From Parasphingopyxis marina (GTDB lineage: Bacteria > Pseudomonadota > Alphaproteobacteria > Sphingomonadales > Sphingomonadaceae), in contig NZ_JACJVJ010000002.1 in the NCBI RefSeq assembly GCF_014237875.1, positions 620,001 to 684,000 of the forward strand: 64,000 nt of DNA, read 5' to 3'. Within the stretch, counting starts at the first letter, position 1. The number at the start of each line of letters is the position of its first letter. The notes under the pieces were generated by a model. The model was given only the letters and a program-made list of their open reading frames with translations, did not search any database and was not told where the DNA came from. Positions 15,329 to 32,844 of this stretch are shown here, piece by piece. The position numbers and the translations under genes are program-made.

Positions 15329-15829
15329 TCATGTCGCGATAAGCCCGTGATCCCGCAGCGCAGCAAGGATAGCGGCGATTGCCGCCCGCGCCTCGGCATC
15401 GACCGTTACGCCGCCGAAAACATTTTCAATCGCTTCCTTGCGGGCTCCGACGACCTGCTCCCCGCCCAATTTGAGTGATTCGCCAATAACTTCGCCCGGA
15501 ATCCATGCCGCGCCATCCCAGCGTGCAAAAAACTGGTCCGCGCGTATCCAGACCGACATTCCTTCCACCGGATCGAGGATTCGCCAGCCGGATTCGGTCC
15601 ATGTTGCAAGCGCGTCGGCCTGCCCACTCCATTCCCCGGTCGGCGCGGATCCGACGATCCAGGACTGCCCCGGATCGGGGCTCGGCGGCGGCACAACCTC
15701 GCCCGATGTTTCGGCGACCGGATGAAGCCCGCTGTCGAGCAACGCCAGCGCCTCGTTGTGATAGAGTTCCTTCTGCGCCTGTCCGGGCTGGAGCAGAGGC
15801 AGCGCGAAGCGGGCGGTGGTGTCGGTCAT
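15329..15829 (-). CDS. DUF2793 GTA-associated tail fibre-like protein
   Basis: This 166-residue protein is the last gene of the gene transfer agent run. The N-terminal LPLLQPGQAQKELYHNEAL, the WIVG...GEWSGQADALATW stretch and WRILDPVEGMSVWIRAD are typical of DUF2793, which occurs as head-to-tail repeats or single units at the end of alphaproteobacterial GTA and phage tail clusters. A role in the tail fibre or receptor binding is inferred from position only. It begins 15 bases after the tail tip gene ends. Confidence 0.8.
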   Translation of the reverse strand: MTDTTARFALPLLQPGQAQKELYHNEALALLDSGLHPVAETSGEVVPPPSPDPGQSWIVGSAPTGEWSGQADALATWTESGWRILDPVEGMSVWIRADQFFARWDGAAWIPGEVIGESLKLGGEQVVGARKEAIENVFGGVTVDAEARAAIAAILAALRDHGLIAT

Positions 15830-15844
15830 TCGGGGTCCTTCCGG

Positions 15845-18040
15845 CTACAGGGTGAAACTGCGCTGCGCCGGCAGCGAGGCGGCCAGCGATCCAAGTTGCG
15901 CGACGGTGAGCGTGAAGTTGGTTGCGCTCCCGGCGCCGTCGATGGCCTGTTCGGCGCTCGAATAAGCGAAGGATGCGACGTCAGTCTCGAGCACGCGCGG
16001 CGCGCCGATATCGGGCGTCACCGTGACCAGCCAGCGCTCGCCCTCTTCGCCGAGCGGGATGTCGCCATTGTCGGTCCAGGCCCAGCCGAGCCGGCTGCGC
16101 CGCACCCACCGGAACAAGATATCGCCGCCTGCCGCTCGCCGCGCGGCGAGATGCACCGGCGCCGGCGGACGGATCGAATGGCCCGCGACCTCGCCGCTCA
16201 CACTCGTGGGCGCGCTGCCATCGCCAAGGCCCGTGGCGAGCAGCTCGAACGGCGCACCGAGAGCCGCGACCGGTAGATCGAAGGCGCGCAGCGTCGCCTC
16301 GTCTACCGCCACCAACCGCTCGCCGACCATATGCCCGCCCATCGCCCATTCGGTGCCGCGCCGGCCGCGCAACAGGCGGGACAGGCGAAAGCGGTTCGCG
16401 CCCAGCGGTTGGACCGTTCCGAATTGGAGGAGTTCGTCTCCGATCAGGATCAGGTTCGTACCGGCGACAAGCGCATCGTCGCTCGCGCCTGCCAGCCACA
16501 TCTGGTCGTGGAGCAGTTCGACCTCGACCGCGGCGCGGCTGTCGATCAGCGCAGCCTGGCCGTCCGGCAGTGCGGTCACCGTCTCGCCGAGAATGGCGGG
16601 CGGCGCGGTCTGGCCGAGGCTGACAAGACTGGCGCTGCCATCGAGGCTATATTCGAGCGCCGCCGCCCGCCAGCCCGGAGACGGCCCGGCGGCTGCCGCG
16701 AAAAGGCGCGGCGCTGCGTGCAACATGTCATCGAGCGCGGGCAGATCGAGCAGCGCCAAAACCGTCGGCCCATGTTCGAGATCGGGATCGACGACGGCGC
16801 GGCCCGAAGCGGCGGCATCGGCCACCAGCGGTCCGCCCCCGGCAACGCGGACGAGGTCGAGGCCGACCGCCATCTTCTCCAGCGAAAATTCGGCGATACG
16901 CCACAGACCGGGTTGTTGCGGGATGGTAACGACCATTCCCGGCCGCAACGCCATGGTCCGCCACGGCAGGTACAGGGCGGCGGTGGCCCGCCCCGCCCAG
17001 ACGGCGTCGAGACGGCGTTCGGCGATCGCCTTGGCGCGGCCGGCGGCCAGTGTCGCCGGAAAGTCGATCCGTTCCGCGCGAAACCCCGGCCCCTCGATCC
17101 GCGCACGCTGGAGCCCCACCTGATAATCGCGCGCCGGCTCATAATAGCGCAGCGCGATCTCGTCGGGCACGGCATCGGCGGCCGCTCGTTCGAGCTGGAT
17201 CGCCGGCCGCCCCTGTTCGCCCGGGCTGGCCCCGAGCAGCAGTTCGTCAAGCGGCACCGGTTCGCCATCATCCTCTCTGAGGCGCAGACCGACGCCGTCA
17301 TCGGTCAGGCTGTGCGGCAATGCCTCGGTCAGCGTCTCGATCGCGCCGCGCACGCTGTCGCCATGGGCGGCATAGCCGGTGAGCGTCGCGCTCGTTTCGG
17401 CGCTCGCCTCGCCGGCGCTCAGTTCGCCGACGATCGTCGCCAGCGATACCGCGCCGGGCTCCGCCTCCGCCTCGAAGGTGAGCGAAGGGATGCGATTGCC
17501 GAAATCGGCCAGCTGCATATTTTCGAATACCGCCAGCGCGAGTCCGCGATAGGCCGGCGTACCGTTCATCCCTTCGGCGGACGCGATCAGCGGATCGACA
17601 TCCTGGCCCTCGTCGCCCGGATAGAAGCGGAAATCGGCTTCGGTCTTGAGGTCCCCCGCCGCCCCGCGCAGCAATTTGCCATCGGCCCAGATGCGATGGA
17701 CCGCGCTCACCGGCCGCGCCGACAACGCCACCGCGAAGGAAGCGCTGTAACTATAGGTCGTCGTGGAGGGGCGCCCCTTGCCGCCGCCTTCCTTGTTCCG
17801 ATCCTCCTGCAGGTCCGTCGCCCAGACGACGGTGCCGGCAACCCGCATCGTCCCGAAGATCTTCGGGAGCGGCGTGCCATAGGAGGATGTCTGCAGGCGC
17901 AGGTCGTTGAGGCGCGGGCCCTGCCGCCCCTTCGGCTTGAAGATTTCGGCATCGATCGTCTGGCCGATGATCGCGCCGATGGCGCCGCCGATCGGGCCGA
18001 ACAGCTTGGTGCCGACGACGTTGAGGACGAGAGTGGCCAT
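15845..18040 (-). CDS. GTA tail tip/host specificity protein (gp15-like, without TIM barrel)
   Basis: It is homologous to the RcGTA g15 megatron that forms the tail tip and channel. The N terminus (LFGPIGGAIGAIIGQTIDAE, then SSYGTPLPKIFGTMRVAGT) and the phage-tail-3 region (IWADGKLLR, GTPAYRGLALAVFENMQLADFG near residues 155-180) are clear. The C-terminal domain of the family follows (GDELLQFGTVQPL, RLLRGRRGTEWA). At 731 residues it is much shorter than the ~1300-residue Rhodobacter protein. The glycoside-hydrolase-like TIM barrel expected in g15 is not visible here. A related-looking domain is fused to the Dit protein encoded at 19303-21624. Confidence 0.88.
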   Translation of the reverse strand: MATLVLNVVGTKLFGPIGGAIGAIIGQTIDAEIFKPKGRQGPRLNDLRLQTSSYGTPLPKIFGTMRVAGTVVWATDLQEDRNKEGGGKGRPSTTTYSYSASFAVALSARPVSAVHRIWADGKLLRGAAGDLKTEADFRFYPGDEGQDVDPLIASAEGMNGTPAYRGLALAVFENMQLADFGNRIPSLTFEAEAEPGAVSLATIVGELSAGEASAETSATLTGYAAHGDSVRGAIETLTEALPHSLTDDGVGLRLREDDGEPVPLDELLLGASPGEQGRPAIQLERAAADAVPDEIALRYYEPARDYQVGLQRARIEGPGFRAERIDFPATLAAGRAKAIAERRLDAVWAGRATAALYLPWRTMALRPGMVVTIPQQPGLWRIAEFSLEKMAVGLDLVRVAGGGPLVADAAASGRAVVDPDLEHGPTVLALLDLPALDDMLHAAPRLFAAAAGPSPGWRAAALEYSLDGSASLVSLGQTAPPAILGETVTALPDGQAALIDSRAAVEVELLHDQMWLAGASDDALVAGTNLILIGDELLQFGTVQPLGANRFRLSRLLRGRRGTEWAMGGHMVGERLVAVDEATLRAFDLPVAALGAPFELLATGLGDGSAPTSVSGEVAGHSIRPPAPVHLAARRAAGGDILFRWVRRSRLGWAWTDNGDIPLGEEGERWLVTVTPDIGAPRVLETDVASFAYSSAEQAIDGAGSATNFTLTVAQLGSLAASLPAQRSFTL

Positions 18041-18042
18041 GG

Positions 18043-18444
18043 TCAGTCGCTCCAGCGCCAGGCAGCGAGAACCGGCCAGCGCGGTGCGCCCGGCGTTTCG
18101 ACCGTGCGGCGCAGGCCAAGATCGGCATGGATGAAACCCGCGCCGCTATGGATGGCGAGGTGGAGCTGGCGCGCGCCGGGATCGAGCAAGAGCAGGCCCC
18201 CTGCCCCCACGGACGGCGCATCGATACGGCGCAGCCCGCTCGCTTCGATCCAGGTCGAAACATCGGGAAGCCGCTGGCCGCGCAGCGCATAGCCTTGCGG
18301 CAGGACCGGCGACGCCCCGGCGGCGCGATAGGCATGAGCAGCGAGCCCGACGCAATCGAGCCCCGTGGCGGGATCGCGCCCCTGGAAGCGAAACGGCGCG
18401 CCGATACAGCCCCGCGCCGCGCCGACAATGATGTCGCTGTCCAT
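18043..18444 (-). CDS. NlpC/P60-family GTA peptidase (gp14-like)
   Basis: This 133-residue cell-wall hydrolase is carried in the tail tip and is likely to open recipient or donor peptidoglycan. The catalytic Cys31 sits in TGLDCVGL; His95 (LHLAIHS) and His106 (FIHADLG) fit the rest of the triad. The ATG at 18444 shares one base with the stop of the hub gene (TGATG), which supports this start over a TTG one codon upstream. It ends three bases before the gp15 gene begins. Confidence 0.9.
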   Translation of the reverse strand: MDSDIIVGAARGCIGAPFRFQGRDPATGLDCVGLAAHAYRAAGASPVLPQGYALRGQRLPDVSTWIEASGLRRIDAPSVGAGGLLLLDPGARQLHLAIHSGAGFIHADLGLRRTVETPGAPRWPVLAAWRWSD

Positions 18445-19265
18445 CAACTCGCCCCCGGATAACGCGTGAGAAGGTCGTTGCCCGGCAGATGCGGCTCGCC
18501 CCGGAAATTCGCGCTATTGGCGAAGCGGCCCGCGCAAGTCGCGAATAGCTTGTCGCAGCCCTCGACGATCTCGACGAGCGTTCCGGTTTCCACCGGGAAG
18601 GCCACGGGATCGCGCAAGGTCAAACGGTTGCCCGCCGAGCGCAGGATGGCCGCGCCGAGCCCGCTATTCTCGCTGGTGAGCCAGCGCAGCCGGCCATAGC
18701 CATAGGCGTTGGTTTCGACGCTGGCGCTGGCGACATCGAAACTCGTTTCGTCGATGACGGCGGTTACGGTAGTGATCCGCGTGCGCGGCGCGAGATCGAC
18801 GCGGCAACGCCTATCGCCCAGCCGCGCCCGGCATTCGGGCGAGGTCAGCTCCACGACCGGCCGGTCGAGCTGGGCGACAGGGCCGCGCAATTCGGCGGTG
18901 AAAGCCCCGCCTTCCTGCGACACCGCGCCAAGCACGCCGCGGGCCAGCAGCAGTTGCTCTTCCTCGGGATCGTCCCAATCGACTGCGAACAGCCGGACCG
19001 ATGCGCCGTCCCATCGCCCGGAGGCGAGATCGGCCGCAGCGATGGCGTCGCTTGTCAAAGCGCCGACGACATCCATCGAACCGGCGTCGAAGCCATCGTT
19101 CAAGGTTATCGCCGACGGCAGCATCCCCGGCGCCGCGCGATAGACGATGCCGCCGATTTCCAGTGTGCGGTCATGCGTCGTGAAACCGATCGCGACGCCA
19201 TCGCGGCGCTGCAAGCGCCAGCAAAAGGCGACCGTGGTGACGGGCGCGTCGAGAAAAGCCGTCAT
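18444..19265 (-). CDS. GTA hub protein (gp13-like, DUF2163/phage BR0599 family)
   Basis: This baseplate hub component is related to RcGTA g13 and to the lambda gpL-type tail tip. LITHDRTLEIGG-like and MDVVGAL motifs mark the family (here TTHDRTLEIGGIVY near residue 29 and DAGSMDVVGAL near 60). Cys145 and Cys154 (PECRARLGDRRC) and Cys237 and Cys244 (GCDKLFATC) form two pairs positioned to bind an iron-sulfur cluster, as known for this family. Length is normal (273). It lies between the Dit-type fusion and the NlpC peptidase as in other GTAs. Confidence 0.9.
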   Translation of the reverse strand: MTAFLDAPVTTVAFCWRLQRRDGVAIGFTTHDRTLEIGGIVYRAAPGMLPSAITLNDGFDAGSMDVVGALTSDAIAAADLASGRWDGASVRLFAVDWDDPEEEQLLLARGVLGAVSQEGGAFTAELRGPVAQLDRPVVELTSPECRARLGDRRCRVDLAPRTRITTVTAVIDETSFDVASASVETNAYGYGRLRWLTSENSGLGAAILRSAGNRLTLRDPVAFPVETGTLVEIVEGCDKLFATCAGRFANSANFRGEPHLPGNDLLTRYPGAS

Positions 19266-19302: not shown

Positions 19303-21624
19303 TCATTGCCGCACCTCGATCAGCGGCACACGCGGGGCGTCCCCGGCCTGGAAGGTGGCGCGGCTGATCTCCAGCCGGTCTTCGGCAAAGCGGACCGGGA
19401 CGTCGAACAGATAGCCGGCGCGTATCTCCACCGTGTCGGCGGGCGCGGCATCGAAGACGATATCGCCGGCATCGAAAGTCCAGCCGTCCGGCTGTTCGAT
19501 ATCGTCGAGCGCGACGCGGACGCTGCCGGATATGGGCCGGGTGATCGGTCGCAGCTGCTGGTCGGCGACTTCCCCATAGCGCTTCACAAGCGGAAAACGG
19601 GTTGAAACGCCGTCGCCGATACCGAGAAACTGGTCGCCGGGATGCGGCGTCCCGGTCATGCCGTTCGAACTGTGATCGAAGGGATCGCGAAAACGGAAAG
19701 CGCGGGCCGCCCCCCGGCGGGCCCGGAAGAAGGCGATCAGCACGCCGACATCCTCTTCGGAGCGGACGCCCGGCCCCGCGTCGTAGCGCATCCGCGCGTC
19801 GGACCAGTCCGCATTGCGATGCTCGGCGCCCGATGCGGTCGTCACGATCGCGGTCGAGAAACCCGGCTCCGCCATCGCCTCGCGGCCCAGCGCCAGTGGA
19901 AAAACTTCGTCGTCGAAAGCCTGCACGGCATCCTCCTCGGGGGAATCGAAATGGGTGAATCCGTCGCGCGCGGCCTGGGGCAGCGCCCAGAAGAAGGTTT
20001 CGGCGGCACCGCGCGCCCTGCCAGCCTCGGCGGCGGCATCGATGGCGCGCCACTGCGCGTCCTCCTCGGCGGTGAGCACGAACCCCGCGAAATAATGCTG
20101 GCGGCTCTGCGGATAACCGAGCCGCGCCGTCATCGCAGCAATACCGCGCGCCGTCGCGCCGCTATTGCCGCTCGTCACCCAGTCATAATCCTCGAGCTGC
20201 AGGACATCGAACGCCGGATCGGCCCAGCCCGGCGGCACATTGGCGCGCTTCGCCTCGGGCGCGGCCTCGTCGAGCACGGTCGGCAGATAGACGAGCAGGT
20301 GCATCTCCGCCGCCGGGTAATCGTCCTTCACCTCCGCCGCAATCGCCGCCGTCGAGGCGGCCAGGATGGTGCCCGCCTGGTCCAGCATCGAAACCTGTTC
20401 CGGCGTCATCGCGCCCTTGACCGTCGGGATCGAGACGAGATTCTCGCCGAACGCCGACTGCGCATCGGCATCGTAGAGGCAGATGCGATCCGTGCCGTCG
20501 AGCATGATCCACCACCAGGGCTCGCCGATCTGGATCTTCACCGGCTGCCCGGCCGCGGCAAGGATGTCCGCGAATTCGCGCGCGGCCCGGGCGATATAGG
20601 TGACGACGGCAGGGCGCGCGGGCGTCAGCAGGGTCGAGGGCGGATCCCACAAGGTCAGCGCCGGATCGCCATTTTCCGCGCGCTGCTTCCAGCTGTCATA
20701 AACGACGCTGTCGAGCGCCTCGTAGGAGATGGAGAAGATCAGCGCATAGCCGAGCGCCTTGGCCCGCACGGCAAAATCTTCGTGCCACGCGATGCAGGCG
20801 GCGTTGAGCTTCTCGTCCGAAAGCTGAAGCCGCACGTTGCTGCCGACCCAGCGAAGCCGGTAGTAATGGCTCATCCCGACATAATGGTTGATGAGGTCGC
20901 GATAGCCGAGATGGAGCGCGCTCCGCAGCAGCCGCGCCGGCGTCTGGTTATAGGCGTCGTCATAGCCGGTCGCGATGCGCAGGCCATGTTCGGGCAGCAT
21001 CGTATCGCCGATCTTCAGGGTCGATGCCGGGCCGGTAGAGGCGATATCCTCGATCTCGACCCAGCCGGTGGCTTCCGAGGCGAATTGCGTGTCGGCGCCG
21101 GTATAGCCAGGCGGGATCAGCGAGATGAACAGCCGGTCGACATCCCCGGCCCAGACCGGATCGGCCTCGCCCGGCAGCAGGAAGCCGCCGTCGAGATCGT
21201 CGAAATCGAGCGTGATATCCGCGTCTTGGGTTGTGCCGCTCGCATAGTTCCAGAGCCGCACATACCAGGTGCGCGGGCTGCCACCCTCGTCGCGGCCTTC
21301 GATGGTCAAGGTCGGTCCGTCGACCGCGTCGAGCGGCATCACGCCGCCGGAGCGCCAATGGAAGGAGAGTCTGCAGCCGCGATAATCGCGCGCCGTTTCG
21401 TAGGCGAGCAGCGGATGATCCCATGCGTCGGCGCTGTCCCAGATCAGCCCGGCGAGATCGTCCGCCTTGTACCAGACCGCCTCGGCGCGCAGCGATTGCG
21501 GTCCGATAGTGACGACCGAGGCCATCATCGGCTGGGCGAAATTGACGGTCCAGAAGCGCGGATCGAACCGCTTGATATGGGCGAACTGCATCGCGTCGCC
21601 GGGCTGGGCGAGCCAATAGGGCAT
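19303..21624 (-). CDS. GTA distal tail protein (gp12/DUF2460) fused to a large TIM-barrel-like domain
   Basis: The C-terminal ~200 residues (from AEPGFSTAIV near 568, through FFRARRGAARAFRFRDPFDH, to PLIEVRQ) are the complete DUF2460/TIGR02217 distal tail protein. The preceding ~565 residues include a beta-rich N-terminal part (FWTVNFAQPMMASVV, GCRLSFHWRSGG). A glycosidase-like alpha/beta region follows with HYVGMSHYYRLRW, IQIGEPWWW, LEDYDWVTSG and HYFAGFVLT. RcGTA g12 is only the Dit part. Similar long proteins are, from memory, sometimes named non-contractile tail sheath proteins. The start MPYWLAQPG lies 14 bases after the tape-measure gene. Confidence 0.8.
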   Translation of the reverse strand: MPYWLAQPGDAMQFAHIKRFDPRFWTVNFAQPMMASVVTIGPQSLRAEAVWYKADDLAGLIWDSADAWDHPLLAYETARDYRGCRLSFHWRSGGVMPLDAVDGPTLTIEGRDEGGSPRTWYVRLWNYASGTTQDADITLDFDDLDGGFLLPGEADPVWAGDVDRLFISLIPPGYTGADTQFASEATGWVEIEDIASTGPASTLKIGDTMLPEHGLRIATGYDDAYNQTPARLLRSALHLGYRDLINHYVGMSHYYRLRWVGSNVRLQLSDEKLNAACIAWHEDFAVRAKALGYALIFSISYEALDSVVYDSWKQRAENGDPALTLWDPPSTLLTPARPAVVTYIARAAREFADILAAAGQPVKIQIGEPWWWIMLDGTDRICLYDADAQSAFGENLVSIPTVKGAMTPEQVSMLDQAGTILAASTAAIAAEVKDDYPAAEMHLLVYLPTVLDEAAPEAKRANVPPGWADPAFDVLQLEDYDWVTSGNSGATARGIAAMTARLGYPQSRQHYFAGFVLTAEEDAQWRAIDAAAEAGRARGAAETFFWALPQAARDGFTHFDSPEEDAVQAFDDEVFPLALGREAMAEPGFSTAIVTTASGAEHRNADWSDARMRYDAGPGVRSEEDVGVLIAFFRARRGAARAFRFRDPFDHSSNGMTGTPHPGDQFLGIGDGVSTRFPLVKRYGEVADQQLRPITRPISGSVRVALDDIEQPDGWTFDAGDIVFDAAPADTVEIRAGYLFDVPVRFAEDRLEISRATFQAGDAPRVPLIEVRQ

Positions 21625-21638: not shown

Positions 21639-22217
21639 TTAGAAACTGCGTTCGAGCGCCCGGCGGACATCGCGGGCGATCTGACGGCCCGAACGGGCGA
21701 GCGCCTCGGGCTCCCGGCCTTCGGGCGCGTTGAGGGTGATCGAGACGCGGACGTCGCGGCCCGGCGCCGCGGACGGCGTTTCGATGCGTCCGCTCGCCGT
21801 CGGCACGAACAGTTCGGGCCCGCGCTCACCGACCCGGTAGGCGCGTCCGGGCGAAACCGGTCCGCCAGCCGCCCGTCCCGGCACGCCGAGAAAGGCCGAG
21901 GCGAGCTGTGTGCCTATCGCGAGCAACCCGCCCTGCAATCCGCCGCCGCCCTTGCCTCCGAAAGCGCTGTCGAGCCCGGTACGGATCGAGGCCCCGGCGA
22001 TTTCGCTCAGGATCGCGAGCGCGGTGCGTTTCAGATCCTCGAAACCGAACTTGCCGGTGCGGACGGCACGCAGCAATGCGCTCTCGATCCTGCGCCCGGC
22101 AATATCGGCCGCGCCGCCGAGACCGTCGGTGAGCGTGCGCCGCATCTCCTCGACATCGCGGCGAAAGGCCCGGCTATCGGCGCGCACGGTTGCGAGCGGG
22201 ATTTCGAAATCATCCAT
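21639..22217 (-). CDS. GTA tail tape-measure protein (gp11-like)
   Basis: This short 192-residue tape-measure protein sets the tail length and is close in size to RcGTA g11. The N-terminal helix has RADSRAFRRDVEEMRRTL, the middle has GFEDLKRTALAILSEIAG, and the conserved GGPVSPGRAYRVGERGPELF loop lies near residue 118, a hallmark of tape-measure C termini. The small size implies a very short tail. It overlaps the gp10.1 gene by eight bases. Confidence 0.88.
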   Translation of the reverse strand: MDDFEIPLATVRADSRAFRRDVEEMRRTLTDGLGGAADIAGRRIESALLRAVRTGKFGFEDLKRTALAILSEIAGASIRTGLDSAFGGKGGGGLQGGLLAIGTQLASAFLGVPGRAAGGPVSPGRAYRVGERGPELFVPTASGRIETPSAAPGRDVRVSITLNAPEGREPEALARSGRQIARDVRRALERSF

Positions 22218-22413
22218 CGGGATATTGCTCCATCAGCCGGGCGAAATCGCCGGGCGCCAGCGGATCGCCTTCAGGCTCTTCCCCGCGCATTGCGGCAAAG
22301 ATCGCCGCCAGTTCGGCCGGCGTCGCCGCCCAGAAATCGGCCGGTCGCCAGCAGAAAAGCATGGCGGACAGGCCGGCGAGCCGCCGCGCCGCGACCGCAA
22401 ATGTATCGCTCAC
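22210..22413 (-). CDS. GTA tail assembly chaperone (gp10.1-like)
   Basis: This 67-residue protein of the TIGR02216/phage TAC family holds the typical pattern of a short helix, then FCWRPADFWAATPAEL (residues ~20-35), then a second helix. Such proteins pair with gp10 to load the tape measure during tail assembly. It overlaps gp10 upstream by four bases (ATGA) and gp11 downstream by eight. Confidence 0.87.
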   Translation of the reverse strand: MSDTFAVAARRLAGLSAMLFCWRPADFWAATPAELAAIFAAMRGEEPEGDPLAPGDFARLMEQYPDG

Positions 22414-22730
22414 CGCCCTTGCAGGATCTGCGCGAGCAAGGTCTTCAGCGCGGGCATAGCCGCCGCGAACCCCTGCCCCGCCACCGCCTCGCCGAACCGT
22501 TCGCGGGTCAATGCCTCGGGCCGGTCGGCCAGGCAGTGCCAGAACAGCGTGACGATCTCGGCGAGCCTCAGCTGCCCCTCCGCCGCCCTTTCGACGAGCG
22601 CGAACAGCGGGCCGAGCTCCTCCTCGGCCGCGACCAGCGCGGCGAAACTCGGCCGCAGCAGGAGCGTTTCTCCAGCGGCGACAATCGCCGCCTCGCCGCG
22701 AACCGGATTGGCCGATGCACCGTCATTCAT
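22410..22730 (-). CDS. GTA gp10 family tail assembly protein
   Basis: This 106-residue member of the GTA_gp10/DUF3356 family has the pattern NPVRGEAAIVAAGE, LLLRPSFAALVAAEEELG and LTRERFGEAV. It is thought to act as a tail chaperone with gp10.1. The ATG at 22730 (MNDGASANPVRGE) is chosen over an earlier start because it matches the family start; the longer frame would reach into the divergent plus-strand gene at 22792. It is separated from gp9 by that inserted gene. Confidence 0.85.
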   Translation of the reverse strand: MNDGASANPVRGEAAIVAAGETLLLRPSFAALVAAEEELGPLFALVERAAEGQLRLAEIVTLFWHCLADRPEALTRERFGEAVAGQGFAAAMPALKTLLAQILQGR

Positions 22731-23814: not shown

Positions 23815-23833
23815 GATGTTTCTCCTTGAAAAG

Positions 23834-25259: not shown

Positions 25260-26444
25260 TCAGCTCGCCCCGAATTTCAGCAGCTTGATCGCTTCGGAGT
25301 TCGACACCTGCCCGCCGACGCGTTTCGTCGCGTAGAAATGGACGAACGGCTTGTTCGAAAACGGATCGCGCAGGATCGCCGTTTCGGCCCGCTCGGCGAT
25401 CAGATAGCCGGCGCGGAAATTGCCGAAGGCGATGGCGTACTCGTCCGAAGCGATGTCCGGCATGTCGTCGGCCTCGACGATCGGATAGCCGAGCAGCGTA
25501 TCGGGCTGGCCCGCAACCAGCCCCGGCTGCCAGAGAAACGCGCCGTCGCTCGTCTTGAACTTGCGGATCGCCGAGAGGGTCGCCGAGTTCATCACGAAAT
25601 GCGCGCCCTGCCGATAGGGCGAACGCAGCGCCTGGACGAGATCGATCAGCGCGTTTTCCGGCTCCGAACCGGCAAAGGCGCCGTCGGCCCCGGTCGCGAT
25701 ATATTGCAGCGACCCGAAGGCGCGGACATCGTCGGCCTCGTCCGTGATCGTTCCGCTAAGCAAACCCTCGGGCCGGTTGGTGCCGTTGCCGGACACGAAG
25801 GCCGCGCCTTCCGCCCGGGCGAATTCGGTCGCGATCTCGCCGGCGAGCCAGGCTTCGACGTCGAACGCCGCATCGTCGAGCATCGCCTGGCTGGCCGCCG
25901 GATTGGCATAGAGATCGCCCATCGGCGGCGCGATCTCGGCGAAATCGGGTGTATCGGTTTCGGGCCGCGCGGCATCCTCGGCGACCCAGCCCGAGGGCGT
26001 GCCGCCGGTCGTCACCAGCTTGCGATAGCCGGCGCTGCCGACCTTCACGACATTGGCGATCGCGCGGATCGGCGAGATCGACACAAGCGTCTTGTCGATC
26101 ACCGCGTCGATTTCCTGCGGCACCGCATAACCCCCCGCCGGGCCGGACGTGCCTTCGAAGGCCTTGCGCTCCAGCCCCGTTTCGAGGCCGCGGCGCAGAT
26201 AGCGGCGCGCGAAATCGCCCTCGCCCTGCGGCATGGATTTCGTGCCTTCCAGCGCGGGACGCGCGGCGGCCACCGTATGCGCATCCATCCAGCGCTTCAT
26301 CGCGGCCATATGTTCGGCCAGCGCCTCGGCGGCGGTCGGCTCGGCTTCGTCCTCGGCGACCTCCTCGTGCGGCGCTTCCTCCATCGCCGCGAAGCTCGCC
26401 GCGAGCGGATCCATCTTGGTTTCGATATCCATCAGTTTCTCCAT
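25260..26444 (-). CDS. GTA major capsid protein (gp5-like, HK97 fold)
   Basis: A helical delta domain with charged coiled coil occupies about residues 1-95. The HK97 core follows (GGYAVPQEIDAVIDKTL, VKVGSAGYRKLVTTGG, FVSGNGTNRPEGLL, FVMNSATLSAIRKFKTSDG, YAIAFGNFRAGYLIAER). The delta domain is presumably removed by the prohead protease. The ATG at 26444 is preferred over an in-frame codon 13 residues upstream because translation there would start within a C-run. It is separated from the protease gene by four non-phage genes, which is unusual. Confidence 0.95.
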   Translation of the reverse strand: MEKLMDIETKMDPLAASFAAMEEAPHEEVAEDEAEPTAAEALAEHMAAMKRWMDAHTVAAARPALEGTKSMPQGEGDFARRYLRRGLETGLERKAFEGTSGPAGGYAVPQEIDAVIDKTLVSISPIRAIANVVKVGSAGYRKLVTTGGTPSGWVAEDAARPETDTPDFAEIAPPMGDLYANPAASQAMLDDAAFDVEAWLAGEIATEFARAEGAAFVSGNGTNRPEGLLSGTITDEADDVRAFGSLQYIATGADGAFAGSEPENALIDLVQALRSPYRQGAHFVMNSATLSAIRKFKTSDGAFLWQPGLVAGQPDTLLGYPIVEADDMPDIASDEYAIAFGNFRAGYLIAERAETAILRDPFSNKPFVHFYATKRVGGQVSNSEAIKLLKFGAS

Positions 26445-26586
26445 CGGTTGGGGGCACAAAAAAACCCCCGGGCCGGACGGCACGGAGGCGAAGGACCGGC
26501 GGGGATGCCGGTGTTGACGCGAAAGCCAGGCCTACCTAGCGAGGGTCACGCATCGCATTGAAAACAATCAGAGGATCAGTCTGCCC

Positions 26587-27090
26587 ATGCTGCCTATCAT
26601 TACTCGTTCTGGTACTCTCGCTGCGCTTTCCGTCACCCTCTTCGCCTGTTCGGGCGAAACCGATGCCGCCAGCGCGGACGGCGACAATGTCGAGGCCGTC
26701 GCCGTGTCGGACGATGCGCCCGACAGCGCCACCGAACCGCAGGCCGCCGACTGGACCGGCATCGAGGATCCCGGAACCCACGCCGCCATCGACGCGCGGC
26801 TCGCTGACTTCGCCAACGAATATGGCCCGTTCGGTCTAGTCGTGGTCGAGGCCCTCGAAGGCGACGACCACTGGACGGCTGCCGGCAAAGCGTCGTTCGA
26901 TCTCGGCATGCCGGCGATCGTCGTTTCCACCAGCCAGCATGAAATCCATTTCGCCGGCGACGAGGGCCTCGCCTATTTCGAGGACTTCCGCGCCGAGCTC
27001 GCCGAGGAAACCGCCGCCTATTTCGATCGCGGCGAATTCGTCGAAGGCGTCGACCACGCGCTGGGCCGGATCGCCAACTTCGAAGGCTAG
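26587..27090 (+). CDS. Lipoprotein with degenerate TPM-like domain
   Basis: This 167-residue lipoprotein has a signal and lipobox LFAC at about residues 19-22, then an acidic Ala-rich linker to ~55. The remaining ~100 residues fold plausibly as a TPM domain: DARLADFANEYGPFGLVVVE, FDLGMPAIVVSTSQHEIHF and YFDRGEFVEGVDHALGRI, the last matching the TPM C-terminal helix pattern. Function is unknown. It is the first of four non-GTA genes between the capsid and protease genes and runs against the GTA operon. Confidence 0.65.
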   Translation: MLPIITRSGTLAALSVTLFACSGETDAASADGDNVEAVAVSDDAPDSATEPQAADWTGIEDPGTHAAIDARLADFANEYGPFGLVVVEALEGDDHWTAAGKASFDLGMPAIVVSTSQHEIHFAGDEGLAYFEDFRAELAEETAAYFDRGEFVEGVDHALGRIANFEG

Positions 27091-27147: not shown

Positions 27148-27420
27148 ATGACCGAACCTACCGAACAGAAAGCGGCTGACACTCCGCCGGACCGCCTCTC
27201 CAACAATCCGACGAGCGACTTTTACGAGCCCGCGGTGCTGGAGCGCGGCATAGGCATCCGTTTCAAGGGCCGCGAGCGCCGCGACGTCGAGGAATATTGC
27301 CTCTCAGAAGGCTGGATCCGCGTCCAGGCCGGCAAGACCCGAGACCGCCACGGCAACCCGCTGACGATCAAGCTCTCGGGCGAAGTCGAGGCGTGGTATG
27401 AGGATGCGGGCGAGGGCTAA
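27148..27420 (+). CDS. DUF3297 family protein
   Basis: This 90-residue cytoplasmic protein is nearly all one DUF3297 domain: DRLSNNPTSDFYEP, LERGIGIRFKGRERRDVEEY, CLSEGWIRV, GNPLTIKLSGEVEAW. The family is widespread in Proteobacteria and its function is unknown; to my recollection some members are called glutathione peroxidase-associated without strong evidence. Its stop overlaps that of the convergent membrane gene by three bases. Confidence 0.9.
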   Translation: MTEPTEQKAADTPPDRLSNNPTSDFYEPAVLERGIGIRFKGRERRDVEEYCLSEGWIRVQAGKTRDRHGNPLTIKLSGEVEAWYEDAGEG

Positions 27421-27821
27421 GCCGCGTTATCGGACGAGCTAGAAACGGCCCGCCAGCGAAAGCCGTGCATGACGAGATAAAAAGTAATCGCGGCCAGAAA
27501 CCCGCCACCAAGAAAGAGGCTGTGAATTTCGGTATCGAATTCGAAGATTCGGCTCGGTCCGCCCAGTATCAACATCGATAACTTGCCTCCTAGAAGGCCG
27601 GCCAGCGCGGCACTCACGGCGCTAACTCCGATTGTCGCGCGTGCTAAAACGTACAGCGGCAGCCCGATAATGAGAATAAATACGAAGGCAAACACAAATC
27701 CCAGAAGAAAGATAAGCGGAGCGGGCTGATTTCCGGTGTAAATGACGCCAACGACAGCGGCCGCAGCAGCGGTGGCGGCGAGAAGCCGCGTTCCAGAAAG
27801 TGCCTCTTGCGATTGGCTCAT
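27417..27821 (-). CDS. Small hypothetical membrane protein
   Basis: This 134-residue protein has about four hydrophobic helices (near residues 12-28, 35-58, 66-85 and 100-117), short loops and a serine-rich tail. No family is recognised. Base composition is somewhat more AT-rich than its neighbours. It lies on the GTA strand but is not a phage type; its stop overlaps the DUF3297 stop convergently. The 27822-27962 gap upstream is AT-rich and may hold promoters for this gene and the DUF2165 gene. Confidence 0.55.
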   Translation of the reverse strand: MSQSQEALSGTRLLAATAAAAAVVGVIYTGNQPAPLIFLLGFVFAFVFILIIGLPLYVLARATIGVSAVSAALAGLLGGKLSMLILGGPSRIFEFDTEIHSLFLGGGFLAAITFYLVMHGFRWRAVSSSSDNAA

Positions 27822-27962: not shown

Positions 27963-28451
27963 ATGATCCGGATACTGAAATCCTTGCTGATAATGTTCGT
28001 CGGCCTGCAGGCCCTGTTCTACGGGCTCCAGAATATCGCCAATCTCGAAATCGCCCAGGCCTTTGTCGGCGGCACGCTCAGCCTTACCGGGCATGAATCC
28101 TATCCCGAAACCATGTTCTTCGCGATCACGAGCCCGGCGCTCCACGCGGTCATCCTGTGGTTCATCATCGCCTGCGAACTCGCCATCGGCCTGCTCGGCA
28201 TCAAGGGCGGCTGGGACCTGTTCGCCGCGCGCAACGCGAACCCTGCGGCATTCCAGGCCGCCAAGCGCTACGGTATTGCGAGCGCGGGCCTGGCCCTGTT
28301 CCTCTGGTTCGGCCTGTTCATGGGCGTCGGCGGCGCCTTCTTCCAGATGTGGCAGACCCCCGCCGGGATCGCCGCCCTCCAAGGCGCGTTCATGTACGCC
28401 ATGTCGTCGGCCATCGTCCTCCTGTTCGTCTGCCATACGCCGGACGATTGA
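27963..28451 (+). CDS. DUF2165 small integral membrane protein
   Basis: This 162-residue protein has four membrane helices. Family stretches are GLQALFYGLQNIANLEIA, VGGTLSLTGHESYPETM, ITSPALHAVILWFIIACELAIG and LALFLWFGLFMGVGGAFFQMW. The role is unknown. AGGAGGGGGCG is a strong ribosome binding site seven bases before the ATG. The stop at 28449-28451 directly abuts the convergent stop of the prohead protease at 28452-28454. Confidence 0.9.
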   Translation: MIRILKSLLIMFVGLQALFYGLQNIANLEIAQAFVGGTLSLTGHESYPETMFFAITSPALHAVILWFIIACELAIGLLGIKGGWDLFAARNANPAAFQAAKRYGIASAGLALFLWFGLFMGVGGAFFQMWQTPAGIAALQGAFMYAMSSAIVLLFVCHTPDD

Positions 28452-28838
28452 TCAGACGACCGCATGCACCCGCGCCAGCGGCTGCATCGGGACGGCGACG
28501 AGGCTGACTTCGACGAGATCGAGGTCGATAAGCTCGCGCAGTTCGCCCTGCCGGCCCTCACGCACGCGATAGCCGAAGGAGAGCCCGCCGAGCGCGCCCT
28601 GCCCCAGCCTCTCCGCCAGCACCGGATCGCCGATCTCGGCGACGACCCGCAGGCCGCGGCTGTCTTCCTCAAGGCTTTCGATCCGGCCGATCACATGGCC
28701 GCGCTCATGCTGCCAGAGCAGCGGCACATCCGCCCCCTGCCCCAGCGCGCGGCGGAAAGCGCCCTTGCGGATCACATCGCCGCCGCGATCGGGGCGATCG
28801 AAGATGGCGGCATAGCCCGCAAAGCGCACCCCGCTCAT
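28452..28838 (-). CDS. GTA prohead protease (gp4-like, HK97 family)
   Basis: This 128-residue serine protease matures the capsid. His44 in LLWQHERG, Ser87 in LGGLSFGYRV and Glu110 in LDLVEVSLV are the family catalytic and conserved residues, and GYAAIFDRPDRGGDVIRKGAF is the usual N terminus. It overlaps the DUF6127 stop by four bases (ATGA). The capsid substrate gene lies 2 kb away instead of being next in line. Confidence 0.93.
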   Translation of the reverse strand: MSGVRFAGYAAIFDRPDRGGDVIRKGAFRRALGQGADVPLLWQHERGHVIGRIESLEEDSRGLRVVAEIGDPVLAERLGQGALGGLSFGYRVREGRQGELRELIDLDLVEVSLVAVPMQPLARVHAVV

Positions 28839-29149
28839 CGCCCGACGCCGTCCATAAGGCCGAAGCGTATGGCGAAGCCGAACAGCATCAGCGCGATCAC
28901 CGCTTTTGCGAGCCAGCCAAGCGCGGACCGGATCGCCCCGCGCCGCGCGATCCGCCAGGCGGAGAGCAGTTCGCGCAGCTCGCCGATATCCTTGGCGGCG
29001 CGCGGATCGGACAGGCCGAGCTTGTGCATCGCCCGCGCCGCGCCGATCTCGCTCGCCTCCTCGATAACCGCGCGGATCGTCACGAGATCGCCGCCGCGAT
29101 CGGCAAGCTGGGCGACGAGGCGCGTGAGCATTTCGGTATCGTCGGTCAT
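28835..29149 (-). CDS. DUF6127 family GTA-associated protein
   Basis: This 104-residue protein has an N-terminal helical part (TEMLTRLVAQLADRGGDLVT, EEASEIGAARAMHKLGLSDP) and one C-terminal membrane helix near residues 78-98. It occupies the place of RcGTA g3.5 between portal and protease, where DUF6127 proteins recur in sphingomonads. Function is unknown. The start at 29149 overlaps the portal stop by four bases. Confidence 0.8.
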   Translation of the reverse strand: MTDDTEMLTRLVAQLADRGGDLVTIRAVIEEASEIGAARAMHKLGLSDPRAAKDIGELRELLSAWRIARRGAIRSALGWLAKAVIALMLFGFAIRFGLMDGVGR

Positions 29150-30258
29150 GGCGCGATTCCCAGCATTTGCCGCTTCTCCTCGGGGCTGAGGAAATCCGCC
29201 GCGCTGACCTGTTTCCAGAGCCGCTCGCGATCCTCGGACAGCGCGGGCACCCGGTCGAGATCGACCGCCAGCCGCGCCTCGGGCCACCAGGCGGAGAGCC
29301 CCTGCGCGATGCCCGAGAGGATCTTCGTCATCAACGGCAGCACGCCGAGCCGCCACAGCGCGCGGTTGGCCTCGCGATAATTGGCGTAGGTGTTGTCGCC
29401 GGGCAGGCCGAGCAGCATCGGCGGCGCGCCGAAGGCGAGCGCGATCTCGCGCGCCGCCGCAGCCTTCAGCCCGACGAAATCCATGTCGGCGGGCGACAGG
29501 CTCATCGCCTGCCATTTGAGCCCGCCCTCCAGCAGCATCGGGCGGCCGGCATTGGCGGCGCCCTGGAAGCCCGCCTCCATCTCCTCCTTCAGCCGCGCGA
29601 ATTGTTCGGGCGAGAGCGCAGCGCCCGGATCGCCGGGATCGTAGACCAGCGCGCCGCTGGGCCTTGCGGCATTGTCGAGCAGCGCCTTGTTCCAGCGGGT
29701 CGCGGCGTTGTGGATCGCCACCGCGCCCGCCGCCGCGCCCAAGGCACCGAGCCCGTAATGGTCGTCGAGCGGGTGCATGGCGCGGATATGCACGAGCCCC
29801 GGGCGCCCCAGCCCGTCCTTCGCCGCGAGCCGCTCCACGCTCTCACCGACGCGGTAGAGAAAGGCGGCAGGCCAGCCCTGCGCGTCGGGCTCCACCGTCA
29901 CCCGTTCGGGGCGCAGCGCGTAGAGCTCGGCGGGCTCCCCGTCCGCATCGCAGAGCAGGCGCAGGAACGCATTGCCGTGAAGCAGCAGATGGATCGCCGC
30001 GGTCTCGACCAGCGATTGCCCGGCGGAAGTGGCGGAGGCCAGGGCGACCTCCCGCGCGCCGCCGTCCAGCGGCGCGCCGCCGGCGCTTTCGCCGACCAGC
30101 CGCACCGCGCGCTGGGCCACCGCATTCTCGCAATAGGCCGCGCGCACCTGCGCCTCGTAACCGCGCGGCCAATCGCCCAAGGTCAACGCACCCCAGGGCG
30201 CGCGCAACAACGCCGGACGCGCCGAAGCGCCCCCGGACTTGCGTCCGAAGAGTTTCAT
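29146..30258 (-). CDS. GTA portal protein (gp3-like, HK97 family)
   Basis: This 370-residue portal forms the dodecameric DNA gate of the head. Recognised stretches are ENAVAQRAVRLVGESAGGAP, LLLHGNAFLRLLCDADG, LVHIRAMHPLDDHYGLGALG and GAPPMLLGLPGDNTYANYRE, in normal family order. It starts 48 bases before the divergent secreted-protein gene at 30308, which separates it from terL. Confidence 0.94.
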   Translation of the reverse strand: MKLFGRKSGGASARPALLRAPWGALTLGDWPRGYEAQVRAAYCENAVAQRAVRLVGESAGGAPLDGGAREVALASATSAGQSLVETAAIHLLLHGNAFLRLLCDADGEPAELYALRPERVTVEPDAQGWPAAFLYRVGESVERLAAKDGLGRPGLVHIRAMHPLDDHYGLGALGAAAGAVAIHNAATRWNKALLDNAARPSGALVYDPGDPGAALSPEQFARLKEEMEAGFQGAANAGRPMLLEGGLKWQAMSLSPADMDFVGLKAAAAREIALAFGAPPMLLGLPGDNTYANYREANRALWRLGVLPLMTKILSGIAQGLSAWWPEARLAVDLDRVPALSEDRERLWKQVSAADFLSPEEKRQMLGIAP

Positions 30259-30307: not shown

Positions 30308-30868
30308 ATGTTCAAATCCGTTGCCGCCTTGGCGGCCTGCACACTCTCCGTGGCCGCCTTGGCCCAAGAGGAGCAACCGCTCGTTCCATTCGACAATGGC
30401 TGGGTCTTCGGCGAAGCCGGCAACAATTGCATCGCACGCTATCAGCGCGACGACGGCAGCTATGCGATGATGGCCCTCACCAAATGGGACGACCTTTCCG
30501 ACAGCCTGCTCTATTGGCGACCCGGCCTCCAACCGATCGCCGACCCCGAACCGGGCGAGGAGGCCGGCGCCGACGCGATCGACGCCTGGGAAGAACAGGC
30601 ATCAAGCGGCTGGGGCGTGGGGCTGGAAATCGATCTTGTTCCCTACCACATCGGCACCTTGATTTCCGATAGCCGGGATCCGGCCGAACCCGATCGGCCG
30701 ATCTGGCGCATCGGCTTGCTCCAGCAGGAATTTCTCGACGCCCTCGAAACCGGAACGACGCTGACTGTCGCGCGCAATGGGGAAGTGGTCGACGCATTTC
30801 CGGTAGCGGGCAGCGCGGACCTTGCCGCCATGCTCCGCCAGTGCGTGGCGATGGATCCCTCCTTCTAA
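30308..30868 (+). CDS. Hypothetical secreted protein inserted between GTA terL and portal
   Basis: This 186-residue protein has a signal peptide (MFKSVAALAACTLSVAALAQ). The mature part contains NNCIARYQRDDGSYAM, a central acidic segment and a C-terminal FPVAGSADLAAMLRQC. The last pattern (small-barrel strand, then an A.L..C ending) resembles invasion-associated IalB-like periplasmic proteins, but the match is weak. The two mature cysteines may pair. It is opposite to the GTA genes and ends five bases before the convergent terL stop. Confidence 0.6.
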   Translation: MFKSVAALAACTLSVAALAQEEQPLVPFDNGWVFGEAGNNCIARYQRDDGSYAMMALTKWDDLSDSLLYWRPGLQPIADPEPGEEAGADAIDAWEEQASSGWGVGLEIDLVPYHIGTLISDSRDPAEPDRPIWRIGLLQQEFLDALETGTTLTVARNGEVVDAFPVAGSADLAAMLRQCVAMDPSF

Positions 30869-30872
30869 CCGG

Positions 30873-32201
30873 TTAAATCCCCCGCACCCGCGGCCTGCCC
30901 TCGGCGCCCAGCATGAGTTCCGTCAACGCCCAGACCAGCGCGTCGGCGCGGTCGGGGCTTCTCCCCGGCCCTTCATAGCCGCCCGCGATCGTCATTCCCG
31001 CCATCTCGTCTTCCAGCGCCGGGAAGGCCCCGGCATGGCTCACCGCGCCCGTCTCGTAGAGCGCGGCGACCGGCTCGGCGCGCGCGCTCTTGCCGCGCGT
31101 CGCATGGACGAGCCGCAGCGGCAGCCGCTTCTTCACCGCGCGCAGCACGCTTTCGACCATCGCCCCGCCCTGGTTCGCCTCGGCGATCACCCGGTCGGCC
31201 TGCCAGCGTTCCGCCGCCCGCGCCGCCGCCATCGCCCAGCCTTCGGGGCGCAGGCCCTCCACACTCGCATCGGCCAGCACATAGCCGCGCTCGTCCGCGC
31301 CCAGCCCGGCAACCACGATCCCGCACGCGTCCGAGCGTCTCGATCCTTGTTCGGCGCCCGCCCCGGCCGGCGGATCGATGCCGATCACGACGCGCTTCAT
31401 CTCGGGCGCCTCCCCCGCGCGGCACGCCTCGATCAGCGTGCGCGGCCACAGGCTGCCCTCGACATCCTCGATCAGTTCGCCGTCCAGCTCCTGCCGGCCC
31501 AGCCTCGTGCCGCCATAGGCGCGCGTCATCGCGGCGACGAAGCCGTCGCCAAGATGGCCGCGATTATCCGCGGTCCGCCCCCTCGTCACCGCCACCTGGC
31601 GATCGGCGAGCAGCCGCCGCACCAGCGGCACCGGCCTCGGCGTCGTCGTCGCCATCACCCGCGGATAATCGCCCAGCCGCATGCCCAGCATCAGATTGTC
31701 CCAGGCCGCCACGCCCTCTTTCCATTTGGCGATCTCGTCGGCCCAGGCGAGATGGTGGGCGGCGCCGCGCAGGCTTTCCGGCTCGGCCGCCGAATAGAGC
31801 ATGGCGATCGTGCCGTTGGTCCATTTGAGCCGCGCGAGCGAAGGTTCGAACTTCGGCCGTTCCTGCCCGTCGCTGACGGCAAGAAGCCCGCTTTCGCCCT
31901 CCACCATGATCGCGCGCGCGTCCTGCATCGTCGCGCCGACAAGCGCGATGCGGCAGGCGCCATGCCGGCTTGCGAAGCCGCGCACCCATTCGGCCCCGGC
32001 CCGCGTCTTGCCATAGCCGCGCCCGGCCAGCAGCAGCCACACCCGCCAGGCGCCAGGGGGAACGCGCTGGTTGCCGCGCGACCACATATCCCAATAGCGC
32101 AGGAATTGGGCGCGCTGCAGTGGATCGAGATCCGAGAGGAGCTCCATGCGATGCGGGAGATCCAGCCGGGCCAGCTGTTCCGCGATGGACGGGTCATCCA
32201 T
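30873..32201 (-). CDS. GTA terminase large subunit (gp2-like)
   Basis: This is the DNA packaging motor and nuclease. Walker A is AGRGYGKTRAGA at residues 59-70, with a Walker-B-like acidic site in HLAWADEIAKW, and C-terminal nuclease-domain stretches VVIGIDPPAGAG, GYVLADASVEG and DRADALVWALTEL. At 442 residues it is the usual size. It overlaps the terminase small subunit gene by eight bases. In GTAs this enzyme packages random host DNA headful by headful. Confidence 0.95.
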   Translation of the reverse strand: MDDPSIAEQLARLDLPHRMELLSDLDPLQRAQFLRYWDMWSRGNQRVPPGAWRVWLLLAGRGYGKTRAGAEWVRGFASRHGACRIALVGATMQDARAIMVEGESGLLAVSDGQERPKFEPSLARLKWTNGTIAMLYSAAEPESLRGAAHHLAWADEIAKWKEGVAAWDNLMLGMRLGDYPRVMATTTPRPVPLVRRLLADRQVAVTRGRTADNRGHLGDGFVAAMTRAYGGTRLGRQELDGELIEDVEGSLWPRTLIEACRAGEAPEMKRVVIGIDPPAGAGAEQGSRRSDACGIVVAGLGADERGYVLADASVEGLRPEGWAMAAARAAERWQADRVIAEANQGGAMVESVLRAVKKRLPLRLVHATRGKSARAEPVAALYETGAVSHAGAFPALEDEMAGMTIAGGYEGPGRSPDRADALVWALTELMLGAEGRPRVRGI

Positions 32202-32724
32202 CGCTCGCGCCGCTTTCCTCCTCCCTCTTCAGCCGCCGATGCATTTCGTCGAGGCGGCGCTTCAACTCCTCAAAGGCTTCTTCCGGGTCGCAGGCCCGCC
32301 CGTCCCCGTCGCGGTGGCGCAACGCCGTTTCTCGATGCGCCTGCAGCAGTCGCAGGCCGGCAGCGTCGCTATAATGGGTCATCGTCGCGACTTCCTTGTC
32401 GCCGCGCACGATCGGCTTTTGCGTACCGTTGATCGCCCGGTCGAGCATCACGAGTTCGAGCCGTTCATAGGCGATCGCGATCGCCTCGTCCCATGCCTGG
32501 CGGAACGCCGGGTCGCGCTTGCGAAGATCGCGCGCCGTTTTCGCGGTCTTGCCCGCTTCGGCCGCCGCCGCCGTGATGTTGCAGGTCGCCGCCAGCGTTT
32601 CGAGGAATATCTCCCGGCGCTTTTCGGTCCAGCCGTCGTGCCGCACCGCGCGAAGCTGCGCCCGGCCCGGCGCGTCGCCCGTATGGTTGCGCGCCAGCCG
32701 TGTTGCCGCCTGTGTTCTGGCCAT
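32194..32724 (-). CDS. GTA terminase small subunit-like protein (gp1-like)
   Basis: This 176-residue protein has a helix-turn-helix-like part (RREIFLETLAATCNITAAAA, then EAGKTAKTARDLRKRDPAFR) and a charged C-terminal coiled coil (EEAFEELKRRLDEMHRRL). RcGTA g1 was shown to be an unusual small terminase without specific cos recognition. The ATG at 32724 begins MARTQAATRLARN. It is the first gene after the promoter at 32816-32844. Confidence 0.83.
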   Translation of the reverse strand: MARTQAATRLARNHTGDAPGRAQLRAVRHDGWTEKRREIFLETLAATCNITAAAAEAGKTAKTARDLRKRDPAFRQAWDEAIAIAYERLELVMLDRAINGTQKPIVRGDKEVATMTHYSDAAGLRLLQAHRETALRHRDGDGRACDPEEAFEELKRRLDEMHRRLKREEESGASDG

Positions 32725-32758
32725 ATACTCTCGCCCGAAAACCTCTGTGCAAAGCAAA

Positions 32759-32789
32759 GGGCCGGAAGCGCCTTTCCAGCGCCCGGCCC
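32759..32789 (-). promoter_or_regulatory. GC-rich hairpin in the GTA mRNA leader
   Basis: GGGCCGG-aa-GCGC, a seven-base loop, then GCGC-CCGGCCC form an 11-bp stem with one bulge in the ~85-base untranslated leader of the GTA operon. There is no U-run, so it is not a plain terminator. It may protect the mRNA 5' end or act in post-transcriptional control. Confidence 0.5.
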
Positions 32790-32815
32790 CGACTCACATT
32801 TCTCGATGTTCGCTT

Positions 32816-32844
32816 TTTGTACCCAAACAGCGTGACGCTGTCAA
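32816..32844 (-). promoter_or_regulatory. Sigma-70 promoter of the GTA operon with overlapping palindrome
   Basis: Read on the minus strand, the consensus TTGACA (32839-32844), a 17-base spacer and TACAAA (32816-32821) form a near-ideal housekeeping promoter ~90 bases ahead of terS. The palindrome ACAGCG-tga-CGCTGT (32827-32841) overlaps the -35 box and the spacer, the position expected for a repressor or activator site controlling GTA production. The actual regulator is not in the window. Confidence 0.7.

Follow-up and report, generated by a model that had tools for sequence, protein, structure and literature searches.

Probable passenger host genes in a maintained gene transfer agent cluster of Parasphingopyxis marina, and a control region of possible GafZ type

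Introduction

How can a gene transfer agent (GTA) cluster be maintained when host-type genes lie inside it, most of them facing the other way? The question is posed by a 64,000-nucleotide stretch of Parasphingopyxis marina DNA (hereafter the window; RefSeq assembly GCF_014237875.1, contig NZ_JACJVJ010000002.1, positions 620,001 to 684,000; genome G000 of our set, 3.3 Mb), in which a complete head-tail cluster of the type known from Rhodobacter capsulatus (RcGTA) occupies positions 15329-32724 of the minus strand. A reading made from the sequence alone had described six non-phage genes in this cluster and offered them as passengers, as promoter donors that split GTA expression, or as new GTA-linked functions. 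Our verdict is that they are passengers on a maintained GTA, and that the interest of the locus lies mainly in its control region. We propose, with a probability of roughly 0.56, that the cluster tolerates these passengers through one promoter and GafZ-type anti-termination.

Results

Cluster and inserts

Profile searches with Pfam, NCBIfam and PHROGs confirm the canonical minus-strand order claimed by the sequence-only reading: terS, TerL, portal, DUF6127, protease, capsid, connector genes, tail tube, TAC proteins and a short tape measure, followed by gp12, hub, NlpC/P60, Rcc01698-like and DUF2793 genes. All GTA reading frames are open. An agent of the RcGTA type would be expected to package mostly random host DNA in particles. 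The gp numbers below are what we take to be the RcGTA names.

32194..32724, minus: terS, small terminase (PHROG 4044, E 1.4e-18; a TTG start at 32757 is possible)
30873..32201, minus: terL, large terminase (PF03237 and PF17289)
29146..30258, minus: portal, gp3 (PF04860, E 6.8e-67)
28835..29149, minus: small GTA gene, DUF6127 (PF19622)
28452..28838, minus: prohead protease, gp4 (PF04586)
25260..26432, minus: major capsid, gp5 (PF05065, E 6e-87; alternative start 26444)
23407..25046, minus: gp5.1, gp6 connector, gp8 tail completion and gp9 tail tube (PF05135, PF11367, PF06199)
21639..22730, minus: gp10, TAC-6 (gp10.1) and short tape measure gp11 (PF11836, PF09550; NF058675 below its cut-off; PHROG tape-measure families)
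19303..21624, minus: gp12, with N-terminal non-contractile-sheath and TIM-barrel domains fused to a DUF2460 distal tail domain (PF23844, PF23845, PF09343)
15329..19265, minus: gp13 hub, gp14 NlpC/P60, gp15 Rcc01698-like and DUF2793 genes (profile matches)

Terminase family PF03354 has no match in the genome; TerL matches PF03237/PF17289 instead. Six non-phage open reading frames (ORFs), five antisense and one sense, interrupt this order at three junctions, TerL/portal (one gene), protease/capsid (four) and gp10/gp9 (one), in agreement with the earlier description.

30308..30868, plus: secreted protein with a signal-peptide-like start, between TerL and portal (frame open from TTG at 30239)
27963..28451, plus: DUF2165 membrane protein (PF09933), between protease and capsid
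27417..27821, minus: small membrane protein, the only sense insert, between protease and capsid
27148..27420, plus: DUF3297 (PF11730), between protease and capsid
26587..27090, plus: lipoprotein, between protease and capsid
22792..23391, plus: Tat-signal PNPOx-like protein (PF01243, E 1.3e-12), between gp10 and gp9

All six GTA genes tested had PHROG matches, against none of four inserts tested, and the secreted protein had no Pfam family at cut-off. Insert GC content (0.56-0.67, against 0.67-0.72 in seven GTA genes) fits host genes and proves little. For the PNPOx gene, the secreted gene, capsid and gp10, some searches used in-frame stretches beginning 2-10 codons off the real start codon (30278-30868, same frame, for the secreted protein).

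In gene content and order from terS to gp15, in a DUF6456 activator homologue and in the constraint on its structural genes, the cluster resembles RcGTA and its alphaproteobacterial relatives. It differs in holding six host-type genes, five of them antisense, and in the large N-terminal sheath and TIM-barrel domains of gp12, which to our knowledge RcGTA gp12 lacks.

Origin of the inserts

DUF3297 is a core gene of the family, found in 237 of 248 genomes, nearly always in single copy and in most of them away from any tested GTA; all 10 genus genomes have it. In the eight other genus loci with a GTA or its remnant (L011-L016, L102, L103), it lies antisense between protease and capsid without exception, and because place and orientation are both kept the arrangement is not due to chance. 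Outside the genus, the only fetched GTA loci with DUF3297 come from two Sphingomonas species (L065, about 2972-3217; L087, about 2941-3171), where it stands about 3 kb upstream of terS and outside the cluster; this placement is a possible link to the entry of DUF3297 into the Parasphingopyxis cluster.

The remaining inserts are far less widespread where prevalence was sampled. Among 89 family genomes, including only one other genus member, the secreted gene is matched in two and the lipoprotein gene in two (the second match being weak), and the PNPOx gene in four, the window genome counted each time. Only two of these five inserts recur in another GTA locus: the secreted gene, with homologues at the same place in L014 (78%) and L025 (34%) and no match in any further fetched GTA locus, and, weakly, the small membrane gene (same place in L012, 27%, E 3e-5). 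The lipoprotein and PNPOx genes have no match in the other fetched GTA loci, and DUF2165 matches in three other genus genomes all lie away from the GTA. By its own terms, the sequence-only reading would fall if the same six inserts were ordinary members of all related GTA clusters; this is so only for DUF3297, within the genus, and not for the other five.

In two decayed loci, DUF3297 has outlasted the GTA. The single-contig genome G004 has no capsid or portal match; between an AraC-type gene and OmpA it carries DUF3297 adjoined by a homologue of the window's membrane gene (35-37% identity, E 1.9e-19). A 15-residue scrap of gp4 lies on one side of this pair and a 49-residue scrap of DUF2793 on the other, so the pair was once inside a GTA that has been deleted on both sides. 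The AraC-type gene shares 75-77% identity with its counterpart ahead of the GTA in two relatives. G003 retains fragments of terS, gp4, gp5, gp15 and DUF2793 around DUF3297, with the promoter motif described below still present. A patatin tree had too little support to tell gain from loss of the membrane gene.

Could the inserts have been co-opted for new GTA-linked functions? DUF3297 keeps its cluster place in all eight other genus loci, and Viswanathan et al. (2017) reportedly suggested that this element of Sphingomonadales holds fitness genes. We nevertheless consider co-option very improbable, as DUF3297 is nearly universal in the family, sits mostly off the GTA and outlasts it in G003 and G004, and the PNPOx, lipoprotein and secreted genes are matched in only 2-4 of 89 genomes. 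That the inserts are passengers is supported by the survival of DUF3297 and the membrane gene in G004 and by the rarity of those three; we read them as host passengers of different ages.

Interruptions across the family

We compared 82 GTA loci: L011-L090, the best 80 of at least 536 confirmed capsid relatives, plus L102 and L103. Gap lengths were taken from local alignments, and gap genes were called by a simple codon-score caller. At least one antisense gene lies inside the cluster in 31 of 58 core-complete loci, and these are mostly other genes than those of the window. Gaps of 300 bp or more are found at many junctions:

Packaging end: terS>terL 5/60, terL>gp3 29/65, gp3>DUF6127 14/73
Head region: gp4>gp5 29/82, gp5>gp5.1 22/34, gp5>gp6 8/43, gp6>gp8 25/70
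Tail region: gp8>gp9 22/70, gp10>gp10.1 1/69, gp11>gp12 3/66, gp12>gp13 4/64

At gp9>gp10 such a gap occurs in none of 69 other loci, and the PNPOx site is therefore peculiar to the window genome in this sample. Relatives reuse the same junctions (terL>gp3, gp4>gp5) for different genes. Interruption as such is common in the family, which corrects the earlier reading on this point. Extra ORFs in such GTA clusters were noted earlier (PMC9765227).

Some gap genes appear to belong to the element. Recurrent sense families at gp5>gp5.1 (19 loci) and gp6>gp8 resemble true GTA genes, and one member of the former carries endosialidase-chaperone and tail-spike domains. The remaining gap genes are mixed and include a LuxR-type regulator, a spermidine-synthase-like protein, TANGO2, a glyoxalase and a methyltransferase. 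The idea that inserts across the family favour the antisense strand was given up: with the capsid>gp5.1/gp6 and gp6>gp8 junctions left out, 55 antisense genes stand against 51 sense genes (score >20), and 19 of the 55 are one gp8>gp9 family.

That family, about 110 residues long, is antisense in 19 of 19 loci (for example L078, 14014-14349), and the member tested has no Pfam match; it has a stronger claim than the inserts of the window to being a GTA-linked antisense gene. Separately, a sense family lies between terL and portal in L063, L072, L076 and L082 (five ORFs in four loci). LuxR-type autoinducer-binding and GerE domains were found in its L082 member, so quorum control inside the cluster is a possibility.

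The control region

Upstream of terS, the window has the sequence elements of a promoter, and a terminator-like element lies before capsid. A GafA-type activator homologue is encoded elsewhere in the genome.

32759..32844, minus: GTA promoter and leader (-35 TTGACA at 32844-32839; -10-like TACAAA at 32821-32816; 17-nt spacer)
26456..26505, minus: terminator-like element upstream of capsid (counterparts in both insert-bearing and insert-free relatives)
52377..52925, minus: GafZ/GafA C-terminal homologue (DUF6456), 182 aa (PF20057, E 2.7e-41)

A palindrome, ACAGCGT-C-ACGCTGT at 32841-32827, has its first three bases inside the -35 hexamer and fills the first part of the spacer with the rest, so that the cluster promoter carries a palindrome between -35 and -10, as expected of a GafZ-type promoter. 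Downstream, a leader hairpin (32789-32759) is followed by a T-rich stretch.

This arrangement is widespread. In 57 of the 60 loci that have terS, a matrix built from 42 sites (41 loci and the window) detects a site no more than 750 bp upstream of that gene; 16 of these 57 loci had not been used for training. The three misses are L066 and L071, with the site 3.4-3.6 kb upstream, and L079, at a contig edge. A second site scoring above 8 bits is absent from all 87 sequences scanned, and no second copy of the motif was found in the window cluster. At genome scale, a 16-base pattern has exactly one match in each of eight of the ten genus genomes, and every one of these matches adjoins GTA genes or a remnant; the pattern is absent from G004 and from the 66%-complete G006, and the reversed-pattern control matches in none of the ten. 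Across the family the pattern occurs in 128 of 248 genomes, against 28 for the reversed control. GTA packaging or head genes lie within 1.5 kb of 28 of 38 retrieved pattern loci, comprising 8/8 in the genus and 20/30 elsewhere, the latter 30 being those returned as loci from the 128 family genomes with matches.

Because a general terminator scan showed no excess (13 found, 13.3 expected), terminator-like elements were tested position by position. A leader with a hairpin of at least 15 kcal/mol and at least four T in the next eight bases is present in 43 of 58 relatives, where dinucleotide shuffles give 10.5. The pre-capsid element (at least 12 kcal/mol and five T, against base-composition shuffles) was found in 20 of 37 insert-free gaps (1.9 expected) and in 16 of 28 insert-bearing gaps (2.7 expected); with dinucleotide shuffles as the null, the count is 39 of 81 against 15.5. 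Before the portal, the corresponding figures are 6 of 27 insert-free (1.8 expected) and 9 of 29 insert-bearing gaps (3.7 expected). Gaps shorter than 40 bp, 16 at capsid and 9 at portal, were set aside.

These data bear on the proposal that the inserts split the operon, each downstream GTA block being driven by its own promoter from or beside the inserts. Room for such a promoter exists in the 142-154 bp of non-coding DNA between capsid and the lipoprotein gene, and sigma-70-like matches number three in all, against 2.1 expected by chance; two of the three lie at 27822-27856, in front of the membrane gene. The GTA promoter motif, by contrast, was found only upstream of terS, and the intervals at the other two junctions are short: 49 bp between portal and the secreted gene, 61 bp between gp10 and the PNPOx gene. 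Although ordinary promoters in or near the inserts could still exist, the sole GTA motif copy argues against the suggestion that the inserts act as promoter donors, and we regard separately driven blocks as unlikely.

Selection on the GTA genes

The earlier view that the structural genes remain open and that selection on them appears to persist is upheld, with the reservation that mild relaxation in the window lineage is possible. Pairwise omega (dN/dS) against G001 ranges from 0.10 (gp9) to 0.51 (gp8), as expected under purifying selection. Substitutions unique to one of four genomes were then counted by codon, with nonsynonymous over synonymous (N/S) counts for the GTA genes (4001 codons) and for four host genes (1085 codons), one of which is the DUF6456 gene itself:

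Window: GTA 140/207 (0.68), host 23/69
G001: GTA 50/181, host 7/47
G002: GTA 66/296, host 14/106
G007: GTA 69/188, host 25/79

The window lineage evolves fast in both sets. A count of unique amino-acid substitutions (312 in the window, 116-160 in the others) was dropped as a decay test, the window being the longest branch.

It is also conceivable that the GTA is dying in the window lineage, its operon broken by the interruptions and its genes yet to decay. Decay is common in the genus, as the scraps in G004, the remnant in G003 and the absence of gp5.1-gp14 from G009, a metagenome-assembled genome (MAG), attest. The window also has the highest GTA N/S, and its GTA-to-host ratio without the DUF6456 gene is 2.6, against 1.9, 2.2 and 1.2 in G001, G002 and G007. 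With all four host genes, a small sample, the ratio is 2.0 against 1.9, 1.7 and 1.2; the ORFs are open, omega is low, and the promoter and the DUF6456 gene are intact. A dying GTA is therefore unlikely in our view. Selection on the GTA genes persists, and the rise from 2.0 to 2.6 makes some mild relaxation possible.

Other loci are irregular in their own ways. In L121 (G009, 12996-15791), the capsid frame continues into a 654-aa ORF, with gp5.1-gp14 missing before a gp15 fragment; as G009 is a MAG, an assembly error is possible. In L161 (G005), L028 and L029, portal follows the promoter motif at a distance of 100-620 bp, and the interval shows no match to terS or terL; the terminase genes may have been lost or moved.

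Discussion

We propose that host genes settled as passengers at a few intergenic junctions of a maintained RcGTA-type cluster. A single dedicated promoter ahead of terS would serve the whole cluster, read by RNA polymerase that carries a GafZ-type anti-terminator. Unmodified polymerase would come off early, at such terminator-like elements as the leader hairpin, leaving the GTA silent and the inserts normally expressed in non-producer cells. Polymerase with GafZ aboard would continue past these elements and cross the inserts in antisense; since producer cells die on release, silencing inserts there would cost little. Antisense inserts would be tolerated, in this proposal, because the cluster has one dedicated promoter read by GafZ-modified polymerase. 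The DNA elements themselves are observed; GafZ binding, anti-termination and read-through of the inserts we infer by analogy.

The analogy is with CcGTA of Caulobacter crescentus and its GafYZ activator. In PMC11150451, GafZ is described as binding via a palindrome between -10 and -35 and travelling with RNA polymerase, and as letting part of the polymerase pass terminators, including E. coli rrnB T1. Shared with the CcGTA described there are the cluster promoter with its -35/-10 palindrome, a candidate terminator early in the transcription unit and a GafZ homologue, here predicted from sequence; that homologue family is annotated as DUF6456 in PMC9638019 and PMC9765227. In the window, the leader ahead of terS already holds the first terminator-like hairpin, whereas PMC11150451 places the CcGTA terminator after the first gene. 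It is this closeness to the Caulobacter system that makes GafZ-type anti-termination the likeliest reason, as we infer, for the tolerance of inserts.

Several observations weigh against this reading. The palindrome sequence differs from the one given for CcGTA in PMC11150451, and read-through is reported there as partial, a terminator still cutting expression about 8-fold in the presence of GafZ. No gafY, the N-terminal GafY half, was identified here. DUF6456, with one match in each of the 10 genus genomes, is not strictly tied to the GTA, because G004 keeps it after GTA loss; another role, or recent loss of the GTA, may account for this. Ten of the 30 non-genus pattern loci have no GTA gene nearby. 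Conservation of TTGAC and C[GA]TNACG in the training set is circular, as both were fixed by the regular expression; no such constraint lay on the remaining consensus positions, on the 16 loci outside the training set or on the genes next to the whole-genome matches. In the window itself, both terminator-like elements are weaker: the leader fold is only mildly unusual (z -1.8) with a weak T-run, and the pre-capsid element has z -1.3 and a T-run that can also pair. Regions upstream of gp3, gp6, gp8 and gp13 are somewhat enriched as well, and shuffles are an imperfect terminator null. The GTA-to-host ratio of 2.6 belongs on this side too.

If anti-terminated passengers are the right account, GafZ-type control is present in a second order besides that of Caulobacter, and GTA control regions can be recognised by a short DNA signature, TTGACNNCGTNACGCT, mostly accompanied by the leader hairpin. 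A bolder version would make the Sphingomonadaceae GTA a Q-like anti-terminated unit insensitive to its content, in which Parasphingopyxis read-through antisense over DUF3297 shuts that gene down in producers. Particle production would then be tied to a committed shift in the physiology of the host whenever the GTA is switched on. We hold this version to be quite improbable.

The 'ancient prophage' of Sphingomonadales described by Viswanathan et al. (2017) is the same kind of element and is predicted to be RcGTA-like according to PMC6821227. Our partial literature search, without Shakya et al. (2017) and Viswanathan et al. (2017), the likeliest sources of reports on inserts, turned up no account of this promoter from Sphingomonadales and none of core genes lying antisense within a GTA. 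Within the window, an OmpA-like gene encoding a long proline run (13915-15108) lies directly downstream of the GTA; it adjoins the GTA in many relatives and is still present in G004. The ancient prophage, too, is said to have a neighbouring OmpA gene, together with a spermidine-synthase-like insert; that account is not known to include an antisense core gene, a promoter or an insert that survived loss of the element.

Beside the DUF6456 gene stands a divergent gene for a Cro/C1-type helix-turn-helix protein (53182-53745), and the pair is kept in G001, G002, G004 and G008. Between the two genes lies a long, nearly continuous inverted repeat (53056-53135) with perfect arms of 19 and 17 bp. The helix-turn-helix protein could be a repressor of the DUF6456 gene.

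Finally, the window TerL (30873-32201) is 74-77% identical to the G002 and G009 versions and 64-68% identical to those of G001 and G007 (loci L102, L013, L011 and L121), and the window's portal and capsid are about equally close to those of all four genomes. This pattern may reflect an exchange of terminase genes between members of the genus.

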